From positions 1-64,000 of the forward strand of contig JAKOVH010000003.1 of assembly GCA_029782145.1 (NCBI GenBank): a stretch of DNA of 64,000 nucleotides, read 5' to 3'. This DNA comes from Actinomycetes bacterium. GTDB lineage: Bacteria; Actinomycetota; Acidimicrobiia; Acidimicrobiales; Acidimicrobilacustridaceae. The translations under genes and the position numbers were made by a program. Positions 5,343 to 53,409 of this stretch are shown piece after piece. The notes beneath the pieces were generated by a model. The model had not been told where the DNA came from. It searched no databases and worked only from the letters and a program-made list of their open reading frames with translations. Numbering within the stretch: position 1 is the first letter of the stretch; every line of letters begins with the position of its first letter.

Positions 5343-5388
5343 CGCTGGCTCGATACATCCCCTCATGAGACCACCGAGCGAGCCAGCG
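5343..5388. repeat. 46-bp palindromic repeat, copy 1
   Basis: Arms CGCTGGCTCG and CGAGCCAGCG flank a centre containing CTCATGAG. The copy lies between the stops of two convergent genes (5326 and 5402). It is the most divergent of the six copies but keeps the 46-bp length. Confidence 0.8.
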
Positions 5389-18683: not shown

Positions 18684-18729
18684 CGCTGGCTCGATCGGTG
18701 ATCTCATGAGGTGATGGATCGAGCCGGCG
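18684..18729. repeat. 46-bp palindromic repeat, copy 2
   Basis: Arms CGCTGGCTCGAT and ATCGAGCCGGCG around a centre with CTCATGAG. It starts 5 bp after the maf stop, between convergent maf and VOC genes. Its centre is in reverse orientation relative to copies 1 and 4-6. Confidence 0.85.
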
Positions 18730-19206: not shown

Positions 19207-19252
19207 CGCTGGCTCGATCGGTGACCTCATGAGGTGATGGATCGAGCCAGCG
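19207..19252. repeat. 46-bp palindromic repeat, copy 3
   Basis: Perfect 12-bp arms CGCTGGCTCGAT and ATCGAGCCAGCG around a centre with CTCATGAG. It lies just past the purH stop (19266, minus strand) and upstream of the VOC gene. Same orientation as copy 2. Confidence 0.87.
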
Positions 19253-19265
19253 GTCGGGGGTGAGG

Positions 19266-20804
19266 TCAGTGGCGGAAGTGGCGCTCGCCGGTGAAGACCA
19301 TGGCGAGGCCGTTGGCGTTGGCGGCGGCGATCACCTCGTCGTCGCGGATGGAGCCGCCCGGCTGCACCACGCACGTGGCGCCGGCCTCAATGGCGCCGTC
19401 GAGGCCGTCGGGGAACGGGAAGAAGGCGTCGGAGGCGTACACACCACCAGCGGCCCGGCCGGCGGCCTTCTCCCCCGCCAGCCGCCCGGCGTCGCGCCGG
19501 TTCTGCTGGCCACAGCCGATGCCGAAGGCGGTGCCGTCCTTCACCAGCACGATGGAGTTCGACGTGACCTTGGCGACGACCCGCCACGCCACCTCGACGT
19601 CGGCCCACTCCGCCTCGGTCGGCTGGCGCTCGGTGACCACCTGCCACGTGGACCGGTCGACGGTGACGTGGTCGGCGCTCTGCACGAGGTAGCCGCCGTC
19701 GATCGAGCGCAGGGTGAGCTCGGGCACCGCCGGCGCGGCCGCCTCGAGGATGCGCAGGTTCTTCTTCTTCTCCTGCAGGAAGGCGAGGGCGTCGGGCTCG
19801 TAGCCGGGGGCCACGAGCACCTCGGTGAACACCGGCTGGATCGCCTCGGCGACCGCCAGGGTGACGGGTCGGTTGACGGCCACGATGCCGCCGAAGGCCG
19901 ACACGGGGTCGCACTCGTGGGCGCGGGTGTAGGCGGTGAGGACGTCGTCGGCCACCGCCGCCCCACACGGGTTGGCGTGCTTGATGACCACCGCGGCCGG
20001 ACCGTCACCGAGGGAGTGGGCGAGCTGCCAGGCCGCCTCGGTGTCGTAGACGTTGAGGTAGCTCATCTCCTTGCCGCCGTGCTGCGTGGCGGTCGCCCAC
20101 CAGCCCCGCTCGCCCCGGGTCGTGTAGCGGGCGCCGACCTGGTGGGGGTTCTCGCCGTAGCGCAGCACCTGGGCGCGGTCGAGGGTCAGCGAGATGGTGG
20201 CGGGCAGCTCGGCCGGCGCGCTCGCGACGGCCGGTGCGGCCTCTCCGGGTCCGGGCATTCCGGCGTCGAACCAGGCCAGGATCTCGGCGTCGTAGGCCGC
20301 GGTGTGGGCGAAGGCGTCGCGGGCCAGCCGCCGGCGGGTCTCCAGCGACAGGGACGCCGCTGATCGCAGCTCGCCCAGCACCTCGTCGTAGCGCGACGGG
20401 TCGGTGACGATGCCGACGTGGGCGTGGTTCTTGGCCGCCGCCCGCACCATGGCCGGCCCGCCGATGTCGATGAGCTCGATCGACGGCTCGGCCGAGAACG
20501 GGTAGAGGTTGGCGACCACCAGGTCGATGGCCTCGATGCCGTAGGTGTCCATGTCGGCGCGGTGCTCGGGGTTCGTCGGGTCGGCGAGGATGCCGCCGTG
20601 CACCTTGGGGTGCAGCGTCACGACCCGGTGCCCGAGGATGGCGGGGAAGCCGGTGAGGTCGGCGACGTCGGTGACCGGCACGCCCGCCTCGGCGATGGCG
20701 CGGGCGGTGCCGCCGCTCGACACCAGGTCCCAGCCCAGCTCGTGCAGGCCACGGGCGAGGTCGACCACGCCGGTCTTGTCGTAGACGGAGAGAAGGGCCC
20801 TCAC
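19266..20804 (-). CDS. purH: Bifunctional AICAR formyltransferase/IMP cyclohydrolase
   Basis: 512 residues; catalyses the last two steps of purine synthesis, from AICAR to IMP, with 10-formyl-THF. The N-terminal MGS-like cyclohydrolase domain begins RALLSVYDKTGVVDLARGL and has SGGTARAI and HPKVHGGILA. The C-terminal transformylase has LRYGENPHQVGA, VIKHANPCGAAV, SAFGGIVAVN and a terminal FTGERHFRH. GTG start overlaps the purN stop (GTGA), so translation is coupled to purN. Confidence 0.96.
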   Translation of the reverse strand: MRALLSVYDKTGVVDLARGLHELGWDLVSSGGTARAIAEAGVPVTDVADLTGFPAILGHRVVTLHPKVHGGILADPTNPEHRADMDTYGIEAIDLVVANLYPFSAEPSIELIDIGGPAMVRAAAKNHAHVGIVTDPSRYDEVLGELRSAASLSLETRRRLARDAFAHTAAYDAEILAWFDAGMPGPGEAAPAVASAPAELPATISLTLDRAQVLRYGENPHQVGARYTTRGERGWWATATQHGGKEMSYLNVYDTEAAWQLAHSLGDGPAAVVIKHANPCGAAVADDVLTAYTRAHECDPVSAFGGIVAVNRPVTLAVAEAIQPVFTEVLVAPGYEPDALAFLQEKKKNLRILEAAAPAVPELTLRSIDGGYLVQSADHVTVDRSTWQVVTERQPTEAEWADVEVAWRVVAKVTSNSIVLVKDGTAFGIGCGQQNRRDAGRLAGEKAAGRAAGGVYASDAFFPFPDGLDGAIEAGATCVVQPGGSIRDDEVIAAANANGLAMVFTGERHFRH

Positions 20805-37353: not shown

Positions 37354-38961
37354 TCAGAACGCCCAGACCGTCTCCGGGGAGTCGGCGCCGCTGGCGAGCG
37401 ACCCGCTCTGACCGGTGGCGTACTGCTCGCCCACGTAGACCGCGAGGTCGAAGTCGCAGGCGGTGCTGGTGTAGCCGCCGAGGTTGCGCACGAAGGCCCG
37501 GTAGGCACCGCCGGGTGCGCCCCCGGTGGGCCAGAACACGTTCTCGATGTGGCTGCCGGTGTCGCCCGAGCCGGGGATGGCGTCCACGTCGAGCTGGCCG
37601 CCCGTCGGGGAGGACGGGTTGCCGTAGTAGATCTCGACGCCGCTCGGGTCGGTGACGTGCAGGTCGAGGTCGCAGTCACCCGTCCAGGTCAGCGTGGCCC
37701 GCACGTCGCCCGTGCCGAAGCCGGGCGTCGGCGTCTCGGGGGCCGGGGCCGGTGCAGGGGCCGGAGCCGGCTGCGGGGTCGGGGCGGGCGCCGGAGCCGT
37801 CGTGGTCGTGGTGGTGGTGCTGCTGGTCGGGGTCGTGTCGCTCCCGCTGGCACCCGGCGACCGCTCGATGACCCCTCCGCCGTTGAGGTTGACGAGCACG
37901 AAGGTCTCGATCACCACGGTGGTCTGGTTCACCACGACGACGTTCGTCGGGCTGAACCCCGGCCACGGCGGCCCGGTGTAGGTGGGCGTGGCGCGCACCG
38001 CCTGGGGCTGGGTCAGCGGGTTGCCGCAGTTGCACTTGATCCGGGGCACGCCGTAGCGGTCGACCATCACCGCGGTGCCCGCCTGCAGGACCGCCTGGCG
38101 AGGCGTGGCCCGGCCGTTGCGGTAGCCGTAGTTGGTCACCCGGGTGTCGCTCACGAGCGTGACCGAGGTGAGCTCACGGATGTAGGTCGGCAGCTGCGCC
38201 ACGGTGAGCTGGTTGCCGCCGCTCCACCGCAGCGTCGGGTCGCGGTTGAGGGCCGACACGAAGGCGCCGGCCATCGCCGGGTTGGCGGCGAGGAAGCTGA
38301 TCTGCCCCTCGGGGTCGCAGCGGCCGCTGTTCAACGTGCCGCCGTACAGGCCGCGCTGGCCGCCGCTCACGGTCCGCACCGCAGTGGTCGCGCCCTGGGC
38401 GGGCGGTGCGGTGCTCGACGTGGAGCTCGTCGTCACCGGAATGGCCGGACCGGGCAGGGTCCCGAACGGGTCGGTGCCGGTGCTCGAGGCGCCCTCGAGG
38501 AAGATCTCCCCGGCGGCGGCCTGGTGGTCGTCGTCGCGCACCACCACGAAGGTGATCACCGCACCAGCGATCAGCACCATGGCGGCCACGATGGCGATGA
38601 CCAGCACCAGCGGACTCCTGCGCTTCGCCGGCGGCTGCCCGTTCGGGCCGTAGGGGCCACCGGGTCCTCCGGGACCTCCGGGGCCTCCGGGGCCGGTGGG
38701 GCCGGTCGGGCCGGTCGGGCCGGTCGGGCCCTGGCCCCAACCGCCAGCGGCCGGCGGGTACTGACCGGTGGCCGGCGGGTACTGACCGGTGGCCGGCGGG
38801 TACTGACCGGGGGGCGGTGGCGGCGGTCCCTGCGGCGGCGGCCCCTGCGGCGGAGGTGCCCACCCCGGACCGGGTGGGGGCGGAGGTGGGGCACCCTGGC
38901 CCGGCCACGCCGGCGCTCCGGGTCCCTGCGGCGGTTGGGATGGTGGCGGGACGGAGGTCAT
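37354..38961 (-). CDS. Proline-rich membrane-anchored protein, DUF6777-like with C-terminal beta domain
   Basis: 535 residues. Residues 1-110 are a cytoplasmic low-complexity region: poly-Pro, three QYPPATG repeats and a collagen-like run of GPT/GPG triplets. One membrane helix follows (about 118-140). The exported part has EIFLEGASSTGTDPFG and GLYGGTLNSGRCDPEG, which recall the actinobacterial DUF6777 domain. A Thr/Ser/Pro linker leads to a DUF2135/YfaP-like domain (ATLTWTGDCDLDLHVTDPSG). AAGGAGG ribosome site. Role unknown, perhaps cell-envelope sensing or adhesion. Confidence 0.7.
   Translation of the reverse strand: MTSVPPPSQPPQGPGAPAWPGQGAPPPPPPGPGWAPPPQGPPPQGPPPPPPGQYPPATGQYPPATGQYPPAAGGWGQGPTGPTGPTGPTGPGGPGGPGGPGGPYGPNGQPPAKRRSPLVLVIAIVAAMVLIAGAVITFVVVRDDDHQAAAGEIFLEGASSTGTDPFGTLPGPAIPVTTSSTSSTAPPAQGATTAVRTVSGGQRGLYGGTLNSGRCDPEGQISFLAANPAMAGAFVSALNRDPTLRWSGGNQLTVAQLPTYIRELTSVTLVSDTRVTNYGYRNGRATPRQAVLQAGTAVMVDRYGVPRIKCNCGNPLTQPQAVRATPTYTGPPWPGFSPTNVVVVNQTTVVIETFVLVNLNGGGVIERSPGASGSDTTPTSSTTTTTTTAPAPAPTPQPAPAPAPAPAPETPTPGFGTGDVRATLTWTGDCDLDLHVTDPSGVEIYYGNPSSPTGGQLDVDAIPGSGDTGSHIENVFWPTGGAPGGAYRAFVRNLGGYTSTACDFDLAVYVGEQYATGQSGSLASGADSPETVWAF
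38749..38811. repeat. Three 21-bp tandem repeats in a coding region
   Basis: Units begin GGCCGGCGGGTACTGACC and encode QYPPATG three times in the cytoplasmic Pro-rich part of the preceding protein. The period is a multiple of three, so copy number can change without frameshift. Confidence 0.8.
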
Positions 38962-51447: not shown

Positions 51448-52824
51448 TCACGGCCGCATGGCGGCGACCTCGGCCAGGGCGGCGGGCAGGGCAGGCGGCA
51501 GGTCGCCGGCCACCAGGCCGCGGGGCCAGCCTAGGGCGCCGGCCCGACCGTGGAGGAACGCTCCGGCGGCCGCCGCCCGAGCCGGGTCGAGGCCCTGGGC
51601 GAGCAAGCCGCCGATCACCCCGGCCAGCACGTCGCCGGTGCCGGCGGTGGCCAGGCGCTCGTCGCCGGTCGTGGTGACCAGCACCTCGCCCGAGGGGGCG
51701 GCGATCACGGTGGTGCGACCCTTGAGCAGCACGACGGCACCCGTGTCGGCGGCGAGGCGGCGGGTCGCGGCCAGGCGGTCCGCGTCCGGTGCCGCTCCGG
51801 CCAGGCGGGCGAACTCACCGTCGTGGGGGGTGAGCACCGTGGTCGGCCCCACCACCTTCCGGGCCTGGCGGCCGAGGGCGGTGAGCCCGTCGGCGTCGAC
51901 CACCGTCGGCAGCCCTCGGGCGGCGGCTGCGGCCACCACGTCCCTGATGGCCGCCGCCGTCGCCGGCGCCGTGCCCAGGCCGTTGCCGATCACCAGGGCG
52001 GAGAAGCGGTCGAACCCGTCGATCACCGCTTCCGCCCACCCCTCGGGGGGCAGGTCGGCCCGGACGACCTCGACGGGCACGTCGTGGGCGGGGCCGCCCG
52101 GGGTGGAGAGCCGCACGTAGCCGGCACCGGTGCGGGCCGCTCCCGAGGCGCACAGGGCGGCGGCGCCGCCCATGCCGGGGCTCCCAGCGACCACCCACAC
52201 CGCGGTCTGCCACTTGTGGGCGAGGGGCGGTCGCTCGCGCAGCCAGCCGGCCACCGCCGCGGCGCCGACGAGGTGGGCCGACGCGGTGCGCACGTCGAGG
52301 CCGATGTCGGCCACCTCCGTGGCGCCCGCCAGCTGAAGTCCCGGCGCCAGCACCAGCCCGGGCTTCAGGGCGGCGAAGCTGACGGTGGCGTCAGCGGCCA
52401 TCACTCGCTCCGACGGTCGGCCGGTGAGGCCGTCGACCCCGGAGGGGATGTCGACGGCGAGCACCAGGGCGCCCGGTGGGGGTTCCGGGGCGGTGTAGGC
52501 ACCGCGGAACCCCGTGCCGTAGGCGGCGTCGATCACCAGGTCGGCGTCGGGCAGGCGGGCGGGCGCCTCGCCCGCGTCGAGCACCGTGACGACCACCCCT
52601 CCTGCTCGCAGGCGGCGAGCGGCCTCCCGGCCGTCGTTGCCGTTGTTCCCCTTGCCGGCCACCACGACCACCCGCCGGCCGTAGGTGCCACCGAGGAGCC
52701 GGATGGCGGCCCGGGCCACCGCGCCGCCCGCGCGACCGATGAGGATCTCGACCGGCTCGGGCGCCGCCCGGTCGATGGCGCCCATCTCCTCGGGCGTCAC
52801 GATCGGCACCAGCCCCCCGCCCAT
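51448..52824 (-). CDS. nnr: Possible internal start: stand-alone Nnr
   Basis: ATG 52824, preceded by a G-rich GGTGGGGGGG stretch, would give a 458-residue Nnr starting GGGLVPIVTPEEMGAID, close to the usual length for the bifunctional enzyme. Nnr repairs damaged (hydrated) NADH and NADPH. Whether cells make this form, the AcpS fusion, or both cannot be decided from sequence. Confidence 0.55.
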   Translation of the reverse strand: MGGGLVPIVTPEEMGAIDRAAPEPVEILIGRAGGAVARAAIRLLGGTYGRRVVVVAGKGNNGNDGREAARRLRAGGVVVTVLDAGEAPARLPDADLVIDAAYGTGFRGAYTAPEPPPGALVLAVDIPSGVDGLTGRPSERVMAADATVSFAALKPGLVLAPGLQLAGATEVADIGLDVRTASAHLVGAAAVAGWLRERPPLAHKWQTAVWVVAGSPGMGGAAALCASGAARTGAGYVRLSTPGGPAHDVPVEVVRADLPPEGWAEAVIDGFDRFSALVIGNGLGTAPATAAAIRDVVAAAAARGLPTVVDADGLTALGRQARKVVGPTTVLTPHDGEFARLAGAAPDADRLAATRRLAADTGAVVLLKGRTTVIAAPSGEVLVTTTGDERLATAGTGDVLAGVIGGLLAQGLDPARAAAAGAFLHGRAGALGWPRGLVAGDLPPALPAALAEVAAMRP

Positions 52825-53409
52825 CAGCCCCCCCACCGACCGCTGGCTCGATCCATCACCTGATGAGATCACCGATCGAGCCACGGGAGCCGTCCCCACC
52901 GACCGCTGGCTCGATCCATCACCTGATGAGACCACCGATCGAGCCACCGGAGCCGTCCCCACCGACCGCTGGCTCGATCCATCACCTGATGAGATCACCG
53001 ATCGAGCCAGCGATGGTGGGGTGAGGGCCAGGGCGAGGGCGATGGCGTGGGCCGCGGTGGCGCCGTGGGTGAGGGTCAGCTTCCACTCCCCCACCCCGGC
53101 GGCGGTCGCCAGCGCCGCCGCCCGCCCCGTGAGCACCAGCGAGGGCCGGCCGTCGTCGTCGCGCACGACCTCGATGTCGTGCCAGTCGGCCGCCCCGAGG
53201 CCCACCCCGAGTGCCTTCAGCACCGACTCCTTGGCGGCGAAGCGGGCCGCGTAGCGCTCGACGGGATCGCCGCGGCGCTCCGCGTAGGCGCGCTCGCCCG
53301 GAGTGAACAGGCGCGTGACCAGCGACGGCCGGCGCCCCAGCACCTGACGGAACCGCTCGAGGTCGACGACGTCCGTGCCGATCCCGACGACCCCGCCAGT
53401 GGGTGTCAC
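51448..53409 (-). CDS. AcpS-Nnr fusion: holo-ACP synthase plus NAD(P)H-hydrate epimerase/dehydratase
   Basis: One uninterrupted 653-codon frame. Residues 1-130 are AcpS (GIGTDVVDLERF with D13, ARFAAKESVLKALG with E61, KLTLTHG), which loads phosphopantetheine on acyl carrier protein. Residues about 133-190 are a 21-residue Ser/Gly-rich peptide encoded by three tandem 63-bp repeats with the core SVISSGDGSSQRSVG. From 196 on is Nnr: epimerase part (VVVAGKGNNGNDG) and ADP-dependent dehydratase part (TAGTGDVLAGVIGGLLAQG). No stop codon separates the two, so ribosomes starting at GTG 53409 must make a fusion. Elsewhere these are separate neighbouring genes. The GTG overlaps the GlmS-like stop (GTGA). 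Confidence 0.8.
   Translation of the reverse strand: MTPTGGVVGIGTDVVDLERFRQVLGRRPSLVTRLFTPGERAYAERRGDPVERYAARFAAKESVLKALGVGLGAADWHDIEVVRDDDGRPSLVLTGRAAALATAAGVGEWKLTLTHGATAAHAIALALALTPPSLARSVISSGDGSSQRSVGTAPVARSVVSSGDGSSQRSVGTAPVARSVISSGDGSSQRSVGGLMGGGLVPIVTPEEMGAIDRAAPEPVEILIGRAGGAVARAAIRLLGGTYGRRVVVVAGKGNNGNDGREAARRLRAGGVVVTVLDAGEAPARLPDADLVIDAAYGTGFRGAYTAPEPPPGALVLAVDIPSGVDGLTGRPSERVMAADATVSFAALKPGLVLAPGLQLAGATEVADIGLDVRTASAHLVGAAAVAGWLRERPPLAHKWQTAVWVVAGSPGMGGAAALCASGAARTGAGYVRLSTPGGPAHDVPVEVVRADLPPEGWAEAVIDGFDRFSALVIGNGLGTAPATAAAIRDVVAAAAARGLPTVVDADGLTALGRQARKVVGPTTVLTPHDGEFARLAGAAPDADRLAATRRLAADTGAVVLLKGRTTVIAAPSGEVLVTTTGDERLATAGTGDVLAGVIGGLLAQGLDPARAAAAGAFLHGRAGALGWPRGLVAGDLPPALPAALAEVAAMRP
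52841..53012. repeat. 46-bp palindromic repeat, tandem copies 4-6
   Basis: Copies start at 52841, 52904 and 52967, an exact 63-bp period: the 46-bp palindrome plus a 17-bp spacer (GAGCCGTCCCCACCGAC-like). Copy 6 has perfect 12-bp arms CGCTGGCTCGAT/ATCGAGCCAGCG; copies 4 and 5 have decayed right arms. Centres carry CTGATGAG instead of CTCATGAG. The array is inside an open reading frame and preserves it. Confidence 0.9.

Follow-up and report, generated by a model that had tools for sequence, protein, structure and literature searches.

A tandem palindromic repeat in the linker of an older AcpS-Nnr fusion protein in an actinobacterial draft genome

In the genome studied here, the holo-ACP synthase AcpS and the NAD(P)H-hydrate epimerase/dehydratase Nnr form a single chain whose linker is encoded by three tandem copies of a palindrome, and comparison with related sequences indicates that the repeat is younger than the fusion it occupies. 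Very probably, the fusion is old, one palindrome entered its linker in frame in an ancestor, and that copy was later triplicated as a tolerated passenger. According to this proposal, neighbouring acpS and nnr genes would have fused long ago to give one protein with three activities and a loose, length-tolerant linker. A member of a dispersed, REP/RPE-like family of 40-bp palindromes would then have arrived, in frame, in the linker DNA of the genus ancestor, most likely with no greater effect on the protein than that of a passenger. In the present species, a unit consisting of the palindrome and 23 bp would have been triplicated in tandem with the frame kept open, lengthening the disordered, Ser/Gly-rich linker by about 42 residues. 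All positions refer to the window, the whole stretch of 64,000 nucleotides that was analysed (Table 1).

The fused gene is a stop-free frame of 653 codons on the minus strand, running from a GTG at 53409 to a stop at 51448, just as a preliminary description of this DNA had read it. Pfam domains follow one another along the product in the order ACPS (aa 9-110), YjeF_N (aa 286-351) and Carb_kinase (aa 404-626), that is, AcpS and then a bifunctional Nnr in one chain. Both parts pass their family cutoffs, the AcpS part with 108.9 bits against 107 for NF000832 and 66.6 against 25 for PF01648, and the Nnr part with 75.1 against 24.9 for PF03853 (YjeF_N) and 174.7 against 27 for PF01256 (Carb_kinase). 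Each has the domain content and order of the known single-domain AcpS or bifunctional Nnr; the known enzymes are separate, whereas here they are joined. A search of PDB structures never matched the two parts with one and the same chain, and we found no paper on an AcpS-Nnr fusion in the open-access literature, which is not proof that none exists. Any coupling of ACP activation to NAD(P)H repair would follow from this older gene fusion. At its 5' end, the GTG start overlaps the 3' end of an upstream GlmS-like frame by 4 bases (53406-53409), an arrangement that suggests coupled translation.

Table 1. Coordinates of the fused gene, its repeat array and other copies of the palindrome. Numerical ranges are window positions; the last four rows give locus and contig position elsewhere in this genome (G000).
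Feature	Position	Strand	Basis
acpS-nnr fusion gene: holo-ACP synthase + NAD(P)H-hydrate epimerase/dehydratase	51448..53409	-	stop-free translation, Pfam/NCBIfam domains, fused orthologs
AcpS domain, aa 7-126	53032..53391	-	structure matches 2wdy/2jbz over aa 6-126; NCBIfam NF000832 above cutoff
Nnr part, aa 195-653, epimerase domain then dehydratase	51451..52827	-	Pfam domains, fused orthologs, structure matches
63-bp x 3 tandem array, codes aa 131-193 (linker)	52831..53019	-	repeat detection, frame, AlphaFold2 pLDDT < 50
Palindrome copy 1, 40 bp	52844..52883	.	
Palindrome copy 2, 40 bp, single interior substitution	52907..52946	.	
Palindrome copy 3, 40 bp	52970..53009	.	
Single intergenic palindrome copy between convergent genes	18687..18726	.	
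Single intergenic palindrome copy, just 3' of minus-strand gene ending near 19266	19210..19249	.	
Degenerate palindrome copy	5346..5385	.	
HldE-like kinase/nucleotidyltransferase, palindrome in interdomain linker	L033, G000 C21:311014		
DnaE2-like polymerase, palindrome in loop of variable length among relatives	L119, C22:600521		
Kinase-like protein, palindrome in linker	L121, C26:104490		
TetR-like regulator, palindrome in C-terminal tail	L032, C22:4457		

The 189-bp array begins right after the end of the AcpS domain and is in phase with the acpS-nnr frame, encoding exactly aa 131-193, which bears out the earlier view of the linker as built from the amplified palindrome. The 63-bp period proposed for the three palindromes is recovered by Tandem Repeats Finder (52831-53009, 2.8 copies, 97% matches), and a repeat search places three copies with starts at 52831, 52894 and 52957, the number three being that of the assembly, a draft in 34 contigs. 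Their length had been given as 46 bp; the core found throughout the family is 40 bp. An extension to 46 bp needs an outer CGC/GCG pair, and only the third copy has this pair on both of its sides. The palindromes are imperfect in their interiors, and shuffles predict zero chance matches to the 40-bp core in the window. On the coding strand, the 53 bp common to the three copies (the palindrome plus 13 bp) vary at one position, as do the two 10-bp spacers. Since 63 is a multiple of three, triplication would have kept the reading frame open. In an AlphaFold2 model based on an alignment of 14 fused orthologs, the mean pLDDT is 82.5 and values fall below 50 only at residues 1-4 and 131-193, so that a disordered joint, flanked by intact domains, is the prediction for the segment that the repeat encodes.

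The preliminary description had proposed that an intergenic palindrome, when it amplified, removed the acpS stop codon or led to its bypass, and that the fused enzyme of this species was created in this way. The array does lie exactly at the junction and codes for the linker, and the commonest variants of the palindrome would place a TGA in the acpS-nnr frame, where all three array copies have TCA and are read through. Nevertheless, this origin is exceedingly unlikely in light of the relatives. We searched the fused protein against 37 genomes of the same family, obtained matches in 35 and read the junction at each fetched locus. AcpS and Nnr share one stop-free frame at 20 loci in as many genomes, all from genera g1, g7 and g12; 18 of these genomes belong to the two other genera, g7 and g12, and have short linkers that contain no such palindrome, while a sister species within the genus has a fused gene with one palindrome. 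The remaining readable loci of the family include no fusion, and neither do the 25 readable loci among 27 fetched from the rest of the order. In a maximum-likelihood tree of Nnr, a single branch (SH-aLRT 93) separates the fused sequences from the others, with one change. Moreover, the linkers of four fused orthologs (L054, L057, L058 and L066) lack ATG, GTG and TTG ahead of the Nnr start motif, so the fusion there is not a mere overlap of two genes. Taken together, the fused but repeat-free relatives and the single fused branch indicate that the fusion predates the palindromic repeat and was not created by it. The fused linkers without the repeat refute the proposed origin, and they are the outcome that the preliminary description had itself named beforehand as decisive against it. 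In another family, a match table places AcpS and Nnr matches within one 671-aa open frame (G083:C178:3400-5211), which may be an independent AcpS-Nnr fusion.

The sister species, G001, allows the later steps to be reconstructed. Its AcpS and Nnr are fused, and its linker contains one palindrome at the same place and in the same frame: the linker reads ...STPMARSAPLEGPRSSHRLEGLLGGGLVPIV, the palindrome is TGGCTCGATC-N20-GATCGAGCCA, and the flanks of the site are 81-82% identical between the two genomes. Thus, a single palindrome probably entered the linker in the common ancestor and was then triplicated here by 63-bp steps. The order that we infer, with fusion followed by acquisition of one palindrome before the species split and then by triplication, is the parsimonious one. 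Alternatively, palindromes may have inserted independently at the same spot of the linker in the two species, as the complete difference between their interiors would allow. Insertion was likely not simply free, with some selection for an open frame, because, of 98 readings of intergenic copies, no more than 18 are free of stops in the acpS-nnr frame. A few intergenic sites also have the stop-free variant, so the linker may have received it ready-made instead of having been repaired after insertion. Four further in-frame genic copies occur in this genome, in HldE-like, DnaE2-like, kinase-like and TetR-like genes (Table 1), with the same reading frame of the palindrome used in the first three; a search of eight relatives for HldE-like orthologs, as a source of an empty site for comparison, found none.

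An open frame need not mean that the two enzymes are made as one, and the palindromes could instead serve as RNA hairpins between cistrons, with Nnr translated from an internal ATG or GTG after the array. In-frame starts of this kind do exist: counted from the Nnr motif, an ATG lies at codon -5 and a GTG at codon 0, preceded by a stretch rich in G. Strong folding of the array RNA (-132.1 kcal/mol, z = -7.9) points the same way, as does the location of most members of the palindrome family between genes. A search of known RNA families returned only sub-threshold matches of the microRNA hairpin type, which we take as chance. We nonetheless regard separate production as unlikely, since the four orthologs named above have no possible linker start codon, and since many fused orthologs conserve, as protein, the GGGLVPIV motif that precedes the normal Nnr start, several of them with valine codons there that are non-start codons. 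Given the ATG and GTG near the junction and the G-rich stretch ahead of them, it is possible that some separate Nnr is made from an internal start in this particular gene. The repeated linker might also be adaptive, its length or Ser/Gly content tuning the distance between AcpS and Nnr. A period of 63 bp preserves the frame, and linker lengths do vary among the fused orthologs, but linker sequence is unconserved and predicted to be disordered, and the same 53/63-bp tandem pattern is found between genes, where no protein is made; an adaptive role is thus quite improbable. We therefore favour the account in which an old fusion acquired the palindrome, and then its triplication, as a tolerated passenger.

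The palindrome belongs to a dispersed family. In a census that is complete for exact ends only and is based on pattern searches and fetched stretches of draft genomes, the 40-bp pattern TGGCTCG-N26-CGAGCCA occurs 56 times in this genome (4.24 Mb), 42 times in G001, 16 times in G019 and twice in G020, with no occurrence in 33 other genomes of the taxonomic family; the reversed pattern, used as a control, was absent from the four genomes with copies and occurred once in a single other genome. Within the family-level group, a looser end pattern recovers the palindrome family in four genomes, and the core sequence was found in this genome only among the genomes of the order (1/298). When the search used arms of 10 bp and let the gap vary over 8-36, every listed copy in this genome and G001 had a 20-bp interior, and the length of the element is thus fixed. 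Against the GTDB genome collection, the same arms matched the sister genome (five contigs) and isolated single sites in unrelated bacteria, where the spacing nearly always differs, and returned no Rickettsia record. The copies in G019 and G020, from another genus (L146, L147, L149 and L150), have the same TGGCTCG ends and 40-bp length, yet a different interior (TTTCTGGTTGCC...). Elsewhere in the window, the preliminary description had recognised only single intergenic copies; two such copies, both well matched, are indeed there, one of them next to a gene that by eye we take to be purH, and a degenerate copy has to be added to them (Table 1). The window also contains a cluster of several GC-rich short tandem arrays with periods of 9, 15, 18 and 21 bp (38653-38857).

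With each array counted as one, and with gene context taken from a simple codon-score gene call (small codon model), 36 sites comprise 14 co-directional, 12 convergent and 5 divergent intergenic positions and 5 genic ones, acpS-nnr included. Covariation between paired positions in 54 distinct copies from three genomes reaches 0.322, compared with 0.150 in shuffles (0 of 500 attain the observed value) and at most 0.130 in slid pairings. This supports the view that the symmetry is kept by paired changes, as support and not proof because the copies are related. Since the sites lie mostly just beyond gene ends and the hairpin symmetry appears to be maintained in this way, we infer that any role of the palindrome itself would lie at the DNA or RNA level.

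Judged by their flanks (~80-91% identical), this genome and G001 share four orthologous element sites, namely acpS-nnr, the copy at 19210 and the pairs L028/L080 and L091/L115; the G001 counterpart of the 18687 copy (L082:41) lies at a contig end, aligns poorly and was not counted. Across element sites L003-L044 in this genome and L078-L115 in G001, mean interior identity is 84% within this genome and 74% within G001, as against 35% between them. At the four orthologous sites it is 30, 35, 35 and 60% (about 40%) with the ends unchanged, and the 19210-19249 copy is among those whose G001 ortholog has a different interior. Identical ends combined with species-wide differences of the interior at shared sites are the pattern of concerted evolution, the alternative being that elements re-inserted independently at sites they favour. 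Across the genome, copies often stand in tandem pairs and triplets, and the tandem state is therefore not special to acpS-nnr. Spacings in this genome are 63 bp (11 cases), 53 bp (8) and 62 bp (1), and those in G001 take the same two values, plus or minus one; the two preferred distances are near 5 and 6 helical turns. Because the spacers of tandem arrays are locus-specific, the arrays arise locally (examples are C22:386984-387149, C12:534292-534437 and C2:430302-430447). One tentative possibility is that these elements make up a new untagged family with fixed 7-10 bp ends, a fixed 40-bp length and tandem copies about 5 or 6 helical turns apart, in which each species rewrites the interior throughout its genome.

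REPs of the GTAG and CGTC superfamilies are palindromes of 20-40 bp found mostly downstream of genes in convergent and co-directional spaces, singly and in groups and sometimes inside genes, DnaE2 included, and their clusters can encode 43-82 residues (PMC3733652). The present family resembles them as a 40-bp palindrome of high copy number at mostly convergent or co-directional intergenic sites, occurring as singles and groups with occasional genic copies, a DnaE2-like gene among them, but its groups are arranged head-to-tail at 53 or 63 bp. Within 8 nt of the palindrome, the GTAG tag was found at 0 of 55 copies on either side and CGTC at 2 of 55 on the left and 0 of 55 on the right. Our search for an autonomous partner covered the Y1 family: the Y1 transposase (RAYT, PF01797) that accompanies GTAG REPs was not detected in G000, G001, G007 or G014, drafts in which absence is not final, and the control genomes were positive. 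A REP/RAYT system was rejected on the tag and transposase results. Rickettsia palindromic elements (RPEs) are about 150 bp long and mostly genic, and protein-coding palindromes are also known from Wolbachia and Methanocaldococcus; such elements are dispersed and lie in frame in unrelated genes, within unstructured parts of proteins (PMC10969869, PMC2996958). The family described here likewise lies in frame in unrelated genes (acpS-nnr and the DnaE2-, HldE-, kinase- and TetR-like genes), which by analogy makes RPEs the closest parallel for genic insertion, but it is 40 bp long, mostly intergenic, bounded by TGGCTCG/CGAGCCA and carried by an actinobacterial draft genome. Like MITEs, it is short, dispersed, built on inverted repeats and apparently non-autonomous; an assignment to MITEs with target-site duplication was rejected, as no direct repeat of 3-9 bp flanks the palindrome in 55 copies. 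With REP-like behaviour in the absence of a tag or Y1 transposase, and RPE-like insertion with a different size and sequence, the family works like REPs and RPEs, and we assign it to neither class.

These observations correct the tempting story in which a repeat makes a new fused enzyme, and suggest that a palindrome of selfish appearance can take hold in the flexible joint of an enzyme that is already fused, and increase in number there, while leaving the enzyme intact. The family of repeats, for its part, provides a natural test of concerted evolution, in which shared sites have the same ends and species-wide different interiors. If the interior is indeed rewritten in each species, this would imply either recombination or copying by a dedicated process, or a DNA-binding protein that recognises the interior and co-evolves with it.
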